Assembly: GCA_009922615.1 (NCBI GenBank)
Contig: RFVF01000002.1
Coordinates: 55,701-119,700 of the forward strand
Direction: 5' to 3'
DNA from: Pseudomonadota bacterium
GTDB lineage: Bacteria > Verrucomicrobiota > Verrucomicrobiia > Limisphaerales > SXTU01
Length of the DNA stretch: 64,000 nt
The notes below the pieces were generated by a model, which saw only the letters and a list, made by a program, of their open reading frames with translations, was not told where the DNA came from and searched no databases. Position numbers and translations under genes: made by a program. Positions 6,741 to 18,193 of this stretch are shown piece after piece (the first letter of the stretch is position 1; every line of letters starts with the position of its first letter).

Positions 6741-7592
6741 ATGAAAATCCTCCACTCGTTCGGTGCTGCCATGCTGACCAACCCACTCCTGCCGGGAACG
6801 CGCGAGTTTCCAAACTCATCGGCCTCTGCTATGCCCGGAGCCAACGCATCTATGGCCGCATCCGACAAGCCCGCTCCTGCCACGTCCGCCACGCGCGTCC
6901 TCCTCATCGATGACGACCGCAAGCTTTGCCGGCTCATCAAGGACTACCTCGAACCCCTCGGCTACAGCGTCCAGGCCGCGCACACCGGACCGGAAGGCGC
7001 GGAGCGCGCCACGGCCGAGTCCTGGCACGCCGTCGTCCTGGATCTCATGCTGCCGGGCTGCGACGGCTTCGAGGTGCTCAAGCGCATCCGCTCCCGCTCC
7101 AGCGTGCCGGTGCTCATGCTCACGGCGCGCGGCGAAGAGGCGGACCGCATCGTCGGTTTGGAACTGGGTGCGGATGATTACCTGCCCAAAACTTTTTCCA
7201 CGCGCGAACTGCTCGCGCGGTTGCGCGCCGTCACCCGCCGCACGACGCACCCGGGTGCCGCGTCCACCGCCGACGGCGATGAAATCGTCAGCGTTGGCGA
7301 CCTCCACATCAATGTCAGCGCCCGCACCGCCACGTTGGGCCGGCAGGCGCTCATCCTCACGCCCGTCGAATTCGACCTCCTGCTCTCGCTGGCCCGCGCG
7401 CAAGGCCGTGTGAAATCCCGCGAGCAATTGCTCGATGAAATCCGCAACCGCAACTACGAAGTGTTCGACCGCTCGATCGACGTGCATATCTCCGGGCTGC
7501 GCAAGAAGCTCGGTGACGACCCGCGTGAACCGCGTTTCATCCGCACGGTCCGTTCCGCTGGCTACATGCTGATCCGACCGGACGCCCCATGA
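6741..7592 (+). CDS. OmpR-family response regulator (CpxR-like)
   Basis: RVLLIDDDRKLCRLIKDYLEPLGYSV, VVLDLMLPGCDGFEVLKRIR, LGADDYLPKTF, winged-helix C-terminus FDRSIDVHISGLRKKLGDDPREPRFIRTVRSAGYML. Start may be internal (e.g. 6852). Confidence 0.92.
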   Translation: MKILHSFGAAMLTNPLLPGTREFPNSSASAMPGANASMAASDKPAPATSATRVLLIDDDRKLCRLIKDYLEPLGYSVQAAHTGPEGAERATAESWHAVVLDLMLPGCDGFEVLKRIRSRSSVPVLMLTARGEEADRIVGLELGADDYLPKTFSTRELLARLRAVTRRTTHPGAASTADGDEIVSVGDLHINVSARTATLGRQALILTPVEFDLLLSLARAQGRVKSREQLLDEIRNRNYEVFDRSIDVHISGLRKKLGDDPREPRFIRTVRSAGYMLIRPDAP

Positions 7593-9202
7593 ACGCGCGC
7601 TCGTCCCTTACCACGAAGATCCTGATCTGGTTCTCGCTGAACTTGATTGTCCTGATCGTCATCGCGTGGGCCGGCCTGCGCTACGCGACCCGCAGCGGCT
7701 TCGACTCCTTCCTCGCCGGCCACGTCGGCGGCCGCGTCGAATCCACCGCCCGCGCCATCATCGGCGAACTGGAGGGTTCTCCCCGGAGCGAGTGGAACGA
7801 AGTGCTGGCCCGCTACGGACGCAAGCACGGAGTCTTGTTTCTCCTGCTCGACCCTGACCAGGCCATCCTGGCCGGTGAGCAACTGCAATTGCCCGAGAGC
7901 CTGCGCAGTCAACTGCCGCGCCCGGCAAGGCATGAGGATGGACAGTTCCGGCGCAACCCGCCGCCCGGTGGCTTTGGTGAACGCGGTGCGCGCGGCCCGC
8001 GCAGCGAATTGGAGGGCGACAACCTCGGGCTGCCGCCGCGCCCGCCGGATTCGCGCGGCGGTCCGCCCCCGAATGGCCCCGGCGGCAACCGCCGCCCACC
8101 GATGGACGGGGAACAGATCGAGCCGGCCCGCGGGTCGGGGCCGGTTGAGGTGCCTGGTTCCGCGCCGATTCACCACCGGTTTCTCGTTCAGTCCGACAAC
8201 CCGCGCGCCTACTGGGTCGGGCTCATGCTGGCCCTGCGCCCGGGCGTTCACGGTGGACACCAACGCGCCACGTTGCTCGCCCGTTCCGCCACCTTCAGCG
8301 CCGGCGGTTTCTTTTTTGATTACCGGCCGTGGCTGTTGAGCTGCGCCGGTATCGTCGGCCTGTCCGGCCTGTTTTGGTTTCCGCTCATTCGCGGCGTCAC
8401 GCGCAGCGTCGGGCAAATGACCCGCGCCACGCGACAGATCGCAGACGGCCAGTTCGACGTGCGGGTGGACGAGACGCGCACCGACGAACTGGGCCAGCTC
8501 GGCGTCTCGATCAACCGGATGAGTGCGCGCCTGGAGGGCTTCGTCAACGGCCAGAAGCGCTCCACCGGCGACCTCGCCCACGAACTCTGCTCGCCGCTCG
8601 CGCGCCTCCAGATGTCGGTCGGCATCCTTGAACAAAACTGTTCCGAGCAACAAAAACCCTGCCTCGAAGATGTGCGGGAAGAAGTGCAGCACCTCAGCGA
8701 CCTCGTCAACGAACTGCTCGTCGTCTCGAAAGCTTCGCTCAAGCCCGCCAACATCAAACGCAAACTGACCAACATCAAAGCCATCGCCAAGGCCGCTGCG
8801 AAACGCGAGGCGGCGGACGAAACCGACGTTCTCGTGCAGGTGCCGGCCGAGCTCACTTGCCTGGCCAGCCCCGAGCTGCTGCAACGCGCGCTCGCTAACC
8901 TGATCCGCAACGCCCTGCGTTACGCGGGCAGCGCCGGCCCTATCACCATCACCGCGCGTGCTGTAGACAGCGCCGTTGTCATCAGCGTGTCCGACCTTGG
9001 TCCCGGCGTGCCGCCGCAACATCTCGACCGGATTTTCGACGCCTTCTACCGGTTGGAACCGGATCGCGCGCGGGACACCGGCGGCGCGGGCCTCGGACTG
9101 GCCATCGTGAAAACATGCATTGAAGGTTGCGGCGGCACCGTCACCGCGAAGAACCGCGAGCCGCACGGACTCGAAGTGCAGATCACACTGCCGGTGGAGT
9201 GA
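7589..9202 (+). CDS. HAMP-domain sensor histidine kinase (CpxA-like)
   Basis: Two TM regions, HAMP segment, H-box DLAHELCSPLARLQMS, N-box NLIRNALRYA, G-boxes DLGPGVP and GGAGLGLAIV; overlaps the regulator stop by 4 nt. Confidence 0.92.
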   Translation: MNARSSLTTKILIWFSLNLIVLIVIAWAGLRYATRSGFDSFLAGHVGGRVESTARAIIGELEGSPRSEWNEVLARYGRKHGVLFLLLDPDQAILAGEQLQLPESLRSQLPRPARHEDGQFRRNPPPGGFGERGARGPRSELEGDNLGLPPRPPDSRGGPPPNGPGGNRRPPMDGEQIEPARGSGPVEVPGSAPIHHRFLVQSDNPRAYWVGLMLALRPGVHGGHQRATLLARSATFSAGGFFFDYRPWLLSCAGIVGLSGLFWFPLIRGVTRSVGQMTRATRQIADGQFDVRVDETRTDELGQLGVSINRMSARLEGFVNGQKRSTGDLAHELCSPLARLQMSVGILEQNCSEQQKPCLEDVREEVQHLSDLVNELLVVSKASLKPANIKRKLTNIKAIAKAAAKREAADETDVLVQVPAELTCLASPELLQRALANLIRNALRYAGSAGPITITARAVDSAVVISVSDLGPGVPPQHLDRIFDAFYRLEPDRARDTGGAGLGLAIVKTCIEGCGGTVTAKNREPHGLEVQITLPVE

Positions 9203-14220: not shown

Positions 14221-15288
14221 CTACTCCACACGGGCCGCGCCCGTGCCCTTCACCACTTCGCCGATGTGCCACGCCGTGTGCTTCTGACCGCGGATGAACT
14301 TCAGCACGGCATCCACCTGCTCAGCCGCCACGATGGCCACCATGCCCACGCCCATGTTGAAGACTTGGTAAAGCTCTGCCTCGTCCACTCCGCCCCGCTC
14401 CGCGAGCAACTGAAACAACGGCCCCAGTTCCCACGAACCCTTGCGGATGACCACGTCACACTTGGCCGGCAGCACGCGAGGAATGTTGTCCACGAAGCCG
14501 CCGCCGGTGATGTGCGCGAAGGCCCTCACTGGCAGTTTAGAGTTTGGCGTTTTGGATTTTGAGTTGAAGCGTTTCAGCAGTGCCTGCACGAGCGGGCCGT
14601 AGCTGACGTGAACCTTGAGCAGCTCCTCGCCCACCGTGTTGTGCAGGTCCGGCACGAAGTCGCCTGGCTGGAACTTGAGCTGCTCGAACAAAATCTTCCG
14701 CGCCAGCGAGTAGCCATTCGTGTGCAGTCCGCTCGATGCGATGCCGATGACCGCGTCACCGCGCTTCACGGACTTCTGCCCGTTGAGCATCCGGGACTTC
14801 TCCACCACGCCCACGATCGTGCCGCTCACATCGTATTCGCCCGCCTGGTAAAAGCCCGGCATCTGCGCCGTCTCGCCGCCGATGAGCGTGCAGCCGTTGG
14901 CCGCGCACCCACGCGCGAAGCCCTTGATGATGTCTGTGAAGACGTGCGGCTCCAGCTTGCCGGTGCCGAGATAGTCGAGGAAGAACAGCGGCTCCGCACC
15001 GAGCACCGCGATGTCGTTGACGCAGTGGTTCACCAAGTCCTCGCCGATGGTGTCGTGCTTGTCCATGGCGAAGGCCAGCTTCAGCTTGGTGCCGACGCCG
15101 TCCACGGAGCTGACCAGCACGGGCTGACGATACTTCTTCACGTCCAGCGCGAAGAGGCCGCCGAAACCGCCCACCTTGCCCAGCACCTCGCGGCGATGCG
15201 TGCTAGCTAGGAGCTTGGGCAGCGTGCCCTTGACCTTGTTGCCCAAATCAATGTCCACCCCGGCGGCGGCGTAAGCTTTTTGTTTCAT
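14221..15288 (-). CDS. purM: Phosphoribosylformylglycinamidine cyclo-ligase
   Basis: MKQKAYAAAGVDIDLGNKVKG; SVDGVGTKLKLAF; VNHCVNDIAVLGAEPLFFLDYLGTGKL; GCTLIGGETAQMPGFY; HITGGGFVDNIPRVLP. Confidence 0.96.
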   Translation of the reverse strand: MKQKAYAAAGVDIDLGNKVKGTLPKLLASTHRREVLGKVGGFGGLFALDVKKYRQPVLVSSVDGVGTKLKLAFAMDKHDTIGEDLVNHCVNDIAVLGAEPLFFLDYLGTGKLEPHVFTDIIKGFARGCAANGCTLIGGETAQMPGFYQAGEYDVSGTIVGVVEKSRMLNGQKSVKRGDAVIGIASSGLHTNGYSLARKILFEQLKFQPGDFVPDLHNTVGEELLKVHVSYGPLVQALLKRFNSKSKTPNSKLPVRAFAHITGGGFVDNIPRVLPAKCDVVIRKGSWELGPLFQLLAERGGVDEAELYQVFNMGVGMVAIVAAEQVDAVLKFIRGQKHTAWHIGEVVKGTGAARVE

Positions 15289-15531
15289 TTGTGAAGGCTC
15301 ATTCAGCACCCCGCGACGACGCGCGGAACGCGAGGCGGCATCTTTCGGAATCCCCCGCCCGGCAGCAAGGCAAAGAATCGGCAACCCTGATCGCCGCGCT
15401 ATTTCCTGAAACCTGAAATCATCTCGTTGCAGCTCACTTTATTGCTGGCATACGTCGGATAGATAACACCGACATCGCGTCAGGCCCCGCGTGCCTTCCG
15501 GTCCAGCACAAGTCGCCCTTCGGCATGGATT

Positions 15532-15785
15532 CGGTTTCTCGCGGAAACCGCCACGAGCCACGCCATGGGTTGGGGTCAGCCTGCGCTGGAGTGCGACACG
15601 CTGCACTAGCGGCTGGCTTCCAGACTTTCTGTAACCTGGTCAGGCCACACCGAAGAGTTCGCTGGGCCGGATCGCTCTTGTTTCTCCGAATCACTGAAGC
15701 GGAGCTTGGCCACAGAAGGCACTTCGGTCTTGAGGCTTTGGCGAATCAGCTTGCCGCGGACTCGATTCCTCGCAAAATACGAGTC
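15532..15785. repeat. Palindrome-rich non-coding stretch left of tRNA-Ser
   Basis: CGGTTTC-tcgcg-GAAACCG (15532-15550) and GACTCG-(15 nt)-CGAGTC (15759-15785); no ORF in the interval resembles a real protein. Confidence 0.35.
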
Positions 15786-15958
15786 GGCCGGAACGTAACG
15801 GGTCGAGCTTGCATACGGCGTCTTCTAGAGCGATTTCGACACGGCGGGCGGTGCTGGGTTAGGCTTTGCGTTTTTCACGCAACCAGTGTCGGGTTGCTGT
15901 ATCAAACGGCCGATTTGAAAGCTCCATTTACGACGCAGGTCGTTGTAGCTGACCGGCA

Positions 15959-16048
15959 GGAAGGGTGGCTGAGTGGTTAAAGGCACCTGACTCGAAATCA
16001 GGAGTAGGGGCAACCCTACCGGGGGTTCGAATCCCTCCCCTTCCGCCA
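15959..16048 (+). tRNA. tRNA-Ser (anticodon CGA), CCA encoded
   Basis: GGAAGGG...CCCTTCC acceptor stem; anticodon arm CCTGA-CTCGAAA-TCAGG; long variable arm GTAGGG-GCAA-CCCTAC; T-arm GGGGG-TTCGAAT-CCCTC; ends GCCA. Confidence 0.97.
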
Positions 16049-16306
16049 CTTGATGACAAGCCGGTAGCCGTTGGCGAGGCCCACCTGTTTCGCAACTTCG
16101 GCCGCCTTGAGCAACAGGTGCCCGACCACCGCATGGTCGGCAGGCGTGGCATCAGCGATGCGGGGGATGGGCTTGCGCGGCACGATGAGGATGTGCGTGG
16201 GCGCCTGCGGATGGAGATCGCGGAAAGCGACGACGTGCTCGTCTTCGTAAACCAGGTTCGCCGGAATCTCCTTCGCGGCGATGCGTTCAAAGAGGGTTTT
16301 GCTCAT
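16049..16306 (-). pseudogene. HIT-family protein, 3'-truncated at the tRNA-Ser 3' end (histidine-triad motif absent)
   Basis: MSKTLFERIAAKEIPANLVYEDEHVVAFRDLHPQAPTHILIVPRKPIPRIADATPADHAVVGHLLLKAAEVAKQVGLANGYRLVIK, then the frame reads into antisense tRNA (WRKGRDSNPR*). The HxHxH C-terminal segment is missing. Confidence 0.85.
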
Positions 16307-16891: not shown

Positions 16892-17455
16892 CTAGCTCAC
16901 CACCAGCGCGCAGTCGGCCCGGTGGTTCTCATCGAGGCACTGGCGGAGGTAGCCCACAATCTGGTCGCTCATCGCCCGGCAGCGGTCGCACCAGCGGCGC
17001 GCGCCCACGAGCCGCTTCACGCAGTCGTGCAGACCGTTGAAGCGCATCAGGCGCGGGGACAGGCTGAGTTGAGTCCGCATCTCCTCGCGCAGGCGCGGGA
17101 AGAAGAGAAGTTCCCCGCCATCGCCGGATTCCAAGGCGAGCGCGGCAAGGCTCGTTTCCGAAACGGGGCCGCTCAGTTCGGGGACTGGTTTCGCCTGCGT
17201 GGTGATGACAATGAGGCCGAGTCCACGCAGCACTTCTTCAAGCGCGGCGGTGAACTCGGCGATGGTCACAACGGTTTGCTGCCGCTCGACTTTGAAGTAG
17301 TGCAGCACGGCCGCGGCAGCTTCCTTCACGACTTCGTGATCAAGCTGTTCGAGCGCCTCACCGATGACCTCGACGCTCACATCCTCGACCGCACAGGGGA
17401 TGTGGTCGCCGTTGGCGGTTTCAAATACCAGGCAGTGGGAATGTAGCTGTATCAC
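16892..17455 (-). CDS. Hypothetical protein overlapping nrdR
   Basis: GTG start at 17455: VIQLHSHCLVFETANGDHIPCAVEDVSVEVIGEALEQLDHEVVKEAAAAVLHYFKVERQQTVVTIAEFTAALEEVLRGLGL...; the longer listed ORF runs back through the nrdR region in another frame. Confidence 0.7.
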   Translation of the reverse strand: MIQLHSHCLVFETANGDHIPCAVEDVSVEVIGEALEQLDHEVVKEAAAAVLHYFKVERQQTVVTIAEFTAALEEVLRGLGLIVITTQAKPVPELSGPVSETSLAALALESGDGGELLFFPRLREEMRTQLSLSPRLMRFNGLHDCVKRLVGARRWCDRCRAMSDQIVGYLRQCLDENHRADCALVVS

Positions 17456-17906
17456 TTTTGGCCTCCACTTGTTTGAGCGCGTCGAGGAAGTCCTCCGCTT
17501 CCTCGAAGCGCCGGTAAATGCTCGCGTAACGGACGTAGGCGACTTTGTCCAACTCGCGCAGGCGGGCCATGACCATTTCGCCCAGCGCCTTGCTCGGCAC
17601 CTCGGAGTCGAACTCGTCGGTGACGCGGTCGGTGATGTTTTCGGCGAGCGCCTCGATTTCGGCGGCCGGCACGGGACGCTTGGCGCAGGCAGCCTTGAGG
17701 CTGCCCAGCAGTTTTTCCTTGGTGAACTCCTCGCGGCGACCATCGCGCTTCACCACCATGAGGCCGGCGTGCTCGATTTCCTCGTAAGTGGTGAAGCGAT
17801 GTTCGCACTTGAGGCACTCGCGGCGGCGACGAATGGTGGAACCTTCCCGCGAACCACGGGAATCGATCACTTTGTCATCCAGGCAACCGCATTTGGGGCA
17901 ACGCAT
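17421..17906 (-). CDS. nrdR: Transcriptional repressor NrdR
   Basis: MRCPKCGCLDDKVIDSRGSREGSTIRRRRECLKCEHRFTTYEEIE; ATP-cone KRDGRREEFTKEKLLGSLKAACAKRPV; YVRYASIYRRFEEAEDF. Confidence 0.97.
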   Translation of the reverse strand: MRCPKCGCLDDKVIDSRGSREGSTIRRRRECLKCEHRFTTYEEIEHAGLMVVKRDGRREEFTKEKLLGSLKAACAKRPVPAAEIEALAENITDRVTDEFDSEVPSKALGEMVMARLRELDKVAYVRYASIYRRFEEAEDFLDALKQVEAKSDTATFPLPGI

Positions 17907-18193
17907 AAATGCGCCTAACCACTTCAAATAGACGCTGAATGTTGTTAGCACCCCACTAATGGTGGGAGCAAGGAATTTCAAAACGATCTCCAAGCCGAAA
18001 AGAACGCGCCTCAAGCCAGGCCGCCCGGCCTTCAACTCGACTTCGGCATAGTCAGCAGTCGTTCGCGCAGACGCTGCACTGGATGGTTGCTTGATCCGCG
18101 TTGACTTGGGGTGGGACTTCTAACGCTCACGTTCCGTTGAGCGAAGTTGAACTTTGAACTTTGAACTTCGGCTCCCGGAAACATACTCGGCGC

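Follow-up and report, generated by a model that had tools for sequence, protein, structure and literature searches.

A HIT gene truncated at the 3′ end of tRNA-Ser(CGA), beside the relic of an integrase on the 5′ side of the tRNA, in a verrucomicrobial genome

The truncated HIT gene and its joint with tRNA-Ser(CGA)

The window, i.e. the whole stretch of 64,000 nucleotides analysed here (G000:C2:55701-119700), belongs to the 5.5-Mb draft genome of an uncultured verrucomicrobial bacterium, in 331 contigs with a completeness of 92.6%, and was compared with ten congeners. As outlined in Table 1, the 5′ part of a HinT-type HIT gene abuts the 3′ end of a tRNA-Ser(CGA) gene, whose 5′ end faces the remnant of a tyrosine integrase.

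Table 1 Features around the HIT–tRNA joint (positions in the window).
Feature	Position	Strand	Basis or remark
purM-containing ORF, left neighbour	14221–15384	−	in congeners not on the contigs of HIT and tRNA-Ser
Junction sequence, purM to integrase remnant	15385–15664	.	only short matches elsewhere
Tyrosine integrase, N-terminal remnant (residues 1–70), in-frame TAG at 15827–15825	15669–15878	−	tblastn with the G004 and G007 integrases
Tandem repeat GTGT-N9-GTAT, decayed, 73 bp before the tRNA	15886–15902	+	one base off GTAT-N9-GTAT
tRNA-Ser(CGA)	15959–16048	+	ARAGORN and Rfam; sole copy found in genome search
tRNA nt 1–40, att identity block carried or displaced by the elements of relatives	15959–15998	+	displaced copies in G007, G134, G127, G088 and G117
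Tail of the truncated ORF (WRKGRDSNPR), non-HIT, antisense to tRNA-Ser	16016–16049	−	translation
HinT-type HIT gene, 5′ part, 85–86 codons, truncated at the 3′ end, without the catalytic HxHxH	16050–16306	−	Pfam HIT 2–76 of 98
nrdR and the following 187-aa gene	16892–18035	−	conserved beside HIT in congeners

The reading frame antisense to the tRNA (16306–16016) starts as HIT at 16306, runs leftward over 85–86 HIT residues and ends with WRKGRDSNPR, and translation bore out the original prediction that this tail is an antisense-tRNA peptide. The same peptide also terminates an unrelated frame at the tRNA of congener G004, which is identical over its 90 nt. The DNA homology of HIT ends at base 16050 in the comparison with all ten congeners and the CCA of the tRNA ends at 16048, leaving a single C (16049) between the two. 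The joint had been placed precisely at the CCA, which is right to one base. Since the 3′ flank of the G004 tRNA reads CCA-CT, base 16049 and perhaps also 16050 may be a leftover of the original tRNA flank.

Pfam HIT matches the window fragment with E = 5.8e-18 over model positions 2–76 of 98, compared with 2–97 for G004, and the catalytic HxHxH triad, which is kept in the ten congeners, is gone at the junction, as had been expected from the reading frame. The window gene shares the N-terminal three quarters with HinT, the purine nucleoside phosphoramidase of the HIT family, but has lost the catalytic end, and judged from the sequence its product is not expected to be active. An intact gene had been proposed as something to look for in relatives: in each of the ten congeners examined HIT is full-length and ends in VPHxHCHILGGRxxxWPPG, so that the truncation is not common to the relatives and is private to the window genome. 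In addition, the missing C-terminus, which according to the original prediction is not found in the ~500 bp left of the tRNA, was found neither in the window nor in the rest of the assembly. A 34-aa query of the lost end gave a best match of only E = 0.72 across the whole assembly, and the Pfam HIT search of the assembly returned, apart from the window copy, one other HIT protein (on contig C312), which has an intact HLHWH motif and apparently belongs to a different subfamily. With an assembly that is 92.6% complete, this evidence for the absence of the HIT 3′ end from the genome is strong, not absolute. The search for a canonical promoter or terminators around the joint gave nothing convincing.

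The HIT gene looks like a recent pseudogene. Its fragment carries three changes specific to the window genome, all at third codon positions, and so gives, within this small sample, no indication of prolonged neutral drift. With its in-frame stop and cut-off end, the integrase fragment looks older than the HIT truncation. A separate irregularity was seen in congener G007 (L155:8162-8377), where a partial second HIT copy (codons 1–40) and, behind it, the tail of the gene upstream stand just before the intact HIT; it is the remnant of a tandem duplication.

The integrase relic and its family

The region to the left of the tRNA is homologous at the nucleotide level to that of G004 (15665–16053, 88%) and of G007 (15670–16048, 79%). 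The homologue of the window integrase in G007 is intact, with 380 aa, Phage_integrase and SAM-like domains and a match to a PHROG integrase. As in elements that use the 5′ half of a tRNA gene, the integrase remnant lies beside the 5′ end of tRNA-Ser(CGA) and diverges from it, with its start 81 bp from the tRNA. A displaced copy of the tRNA 5′ half, which five relatives have, is absent from the window genome, and hence the locus is a relic of such an element, not a member element. The same genome holds a second decayed integrase of this family beside a tRNA-Met (L273, G000:C3:85832-86859). Rfam matches other than to tRNA were all below the gathering scores.

Within the genus, 24 matches to the integrase or its remnants were obtained, 22 of which had a tRNA in the fetched locus. 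All 22 are arranged divergently, with the tRNA 5′ end 13–104 bp (mostly 54–86 bp) from the projected integrase start. Order-wide relatives are mostly 55–100 bp from, and divergent to, tRNA 5′ ends, and among the best 30 order-wide integrase loci the same divergent layout was found in 25, at 57–139 bp. Two integrases of the family (L184 and L187) instead share their strand with the tRNA nearby. The tRNAs beside the family comprise Ser, Arg, Met, Lys, Val, Leu and Ala. The tRNA 5′ half recurs, with 39–40 exact nucleotides within nt 1–40, at a distance of 2.7–15 kb on the integrase side in G007, G134, G127 and G088, and of about 42 kb in G117. These displaced copies place the elements upstream of the tRNA and the recombination within nt 1–40, the reverse of the usual layout at tRNA 3′ ends.

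Some further observations were made at these loci. A short remnant of an integrase start lies upstream of the displaced tRNA 5′ half in G007 (L144:18855-18954), which suggests that the same tRNA was used more than once by elements. The cargo of the G007 element (L144:9997-17669) includes a large frame resembling a DNA methyltransferase and a pair resembling a toxin–antitoxin system. Short dispersed repeats of ~37–40 bp with many genomic copies occur near the tRNA in G004 (L143, about 8661–8697) and G007 (L144, about 7552–7591).

Upstream of the tRNAs a short tandem repeat, GTAT-N9-GTAT, was recognized. It precedes 31 of 46 tRNAs in integrase-associated loci, nearly always at 72–77 bp, and none of 15 tRNAs without an integrase; the count is descriptive, the pattern having been defined after viewing the same loci, several of which are homologous or were fetched twice. 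By shuffling 0.14 occurrences would be expected, a value that ignores the shared ancestry of the loci. The repeat could be an arm site of the integrase or part of the integrase promoter.

Origin of the joint

The neighbourhood of the joint differs from that in the congeners, where HIT, tRNA-Ser and purM lie on different contigs. The genes mutS, pilT and that of a di-heme protein, found beside HIT or tRNA-Ser in congeners, are located on other contigs in the window genome, and pilT, although present in 10 of the 11 genomes, adjoins tRNA-Ser in G007 only. Gene order is thus widely scrambled in the genus, and one more gene-breaking joint is unsurprising. A 50-bp match between the HIT region of G002 and contig C301 of the window genome turned out to be short and due to chance, lying in a gene that resembles a urease accessory GTPase. 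The identity to G004 is 87.9% for purM, 87.9% for the integrase–tRNA segment, 88.4% for the nrdR block and 91.5% for HIT, and from this about equal divergence both sides of the junction come from one genus.

Taken together, the locus probably records an illegitimate rearrangement in a scrambled lineage, beside the footprint of a decayed 5′-half tRNA element. An integrative element of the family would once have resided upstream of tRNA-Ser(CGA) and then decayed to the upstream region of its integrase and the initial 70 codons of that gene. HIT would subsequently have been broken behind codon 85 by a chromosomal rearrangement or deletion that brought in the 3′ end of the tRNA together with one or two bases formerly flanking it; the remainder of HIT would have been lost. 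As HIT and the tRNA flank have no extended homology and at most 1–2 bases in common, we infer that the joining was illegitimate; it would also have been later than the decay of the element and independent of the integrase. The exchange of this family takes place in the 5′ half of the tRNA and the HIT joint lies at the opposite end, so that the integrase has no obvious reason to cut there; it is probably not the cause of the break. Two points speak against an illegitimate rearrangement. That a random joint should fall one base past the CCA is strikingly coincidental, although any deletion extending beyond that point would have cost the genome its only tRNA-Ser(CGA) copy found. Furthermore, the gene order of the congeners is too scrambled for the event to be reconstructed: an attempt to derive the ancestral order from them yielded conserved blocks that were too short.

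The position of the breakpoint is what the original prediction had built on, proposing the scar of an integration or excision, or a deletion fusing tRNA and HIT. The fusion by rearrangement or deletion is retained, as is the use of this tRNA by a mobile element, but the integrase relic of that element lies on the 5′ side, not the 3′ side, of the tRNA, and the family displaces 5′ fragments. An att scar of a conventional 3′-end integrase, left after excision or deletion of a downstream island, would account for the joint one base past the CCA, and tRNA 3′ ends are common targets: in Islander, 3760 of 3919 islands have a 3′ tDNA fragment, compared with 159 with a 5′ fragment (PMC4383910). However, the proposed search of the genome for att-like copies of the tRNA 3′ portion gave the tRNA-Ser(TGA) gene as its sole match, and in congeners HIT lies beside nrdR in the chromosome and is not element cargo, which leaves the scar a poor candidate. 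A chimeric make-up of this tRNA, with a tRNA-Ser(CGA) 5′ half and a tRNA-Ser(TGA) 3′ half, was ruled out, the variable and T arms varying freely across the order.

For a draft genome in 331 contigs it must also be asked whether the HIT–tRNA joint was made by the assembler. We regard this as unlikely: a chimera in the assembly graph presupposes sequence common to both partners where the switch occurs, and HIT and the tRNA flank share at most the 1–2 bases mentioned, both sides are about equally diverged from G004, and even a jump inside the 90-nt tRNA would still require a HIT–tRNA joint in some molecule. Alternatively, tRNA-Ser(CGA) and integrase could have moved as one unit with a complete tRNA and inserted into HIT. 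The 3′ flank of the tRNA is different in every genome seen and the tRNA was undetected in about half of the genus, as a moving unit would have it. Nevertheless, excision between 5′-half copies would yield a circle with the tRNA 5′ half only, the occurrence of the same integrase family at Arg, Met, Lys, Val, Leu and Ala tRNAs argues for host tRNAs as targets, and gene order is scrambled in general; such a transfer is very improbable. Equally far-fetched, and drawn by analogy, is the notion that the 5′-half integrases of this order might also carry out low-specificity recombination and scramble the chromosomes, with the HIT–tRNA joint as one product.

Related systems and significance

The analogy is to the pTN3-like archaeal integrases, whose attB is the tRNA 5′ half (PMC8371274) and for which, in the case of pTN3 in Thermococcus, low-specificity recombination and inversions were reported (PMC8371274, PMC5495485). 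The window family shares with them the attB in the tRNA 5′ half and heavily rearranged host chromosomes; it differs in being bacterial and in that the integrase gene lies whole beside the tRNA in relatives and is not split by integration. Islands upstream of tRNA genes, of the 5′-fragment type, are a known but uncommon arrangement. With the 5′-fragment islands of Islander (PMC4383910), the elements of the relatives have in common the tyrosine integrase, the whole tRNA with a displaced 5′ fragment and the upstream position, whereas in the window only the tRNA-proximal end is left and the displaced fragment is absent. The available text of that paper names neither the verrucomicrobial clade nor the GTAT-N9-GTAT repeat.

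The broken HIT gene itself is an ordinary pseudogene. Of more use is the integrase family, which within one bacterial order is directed at the 5′ halves of many tRNA genes. The footprints left once the element is gone, namely repeat, integrase start and tRNA, provide a simple signature with which to search for islands on the upstream, less common side of tRNAs.
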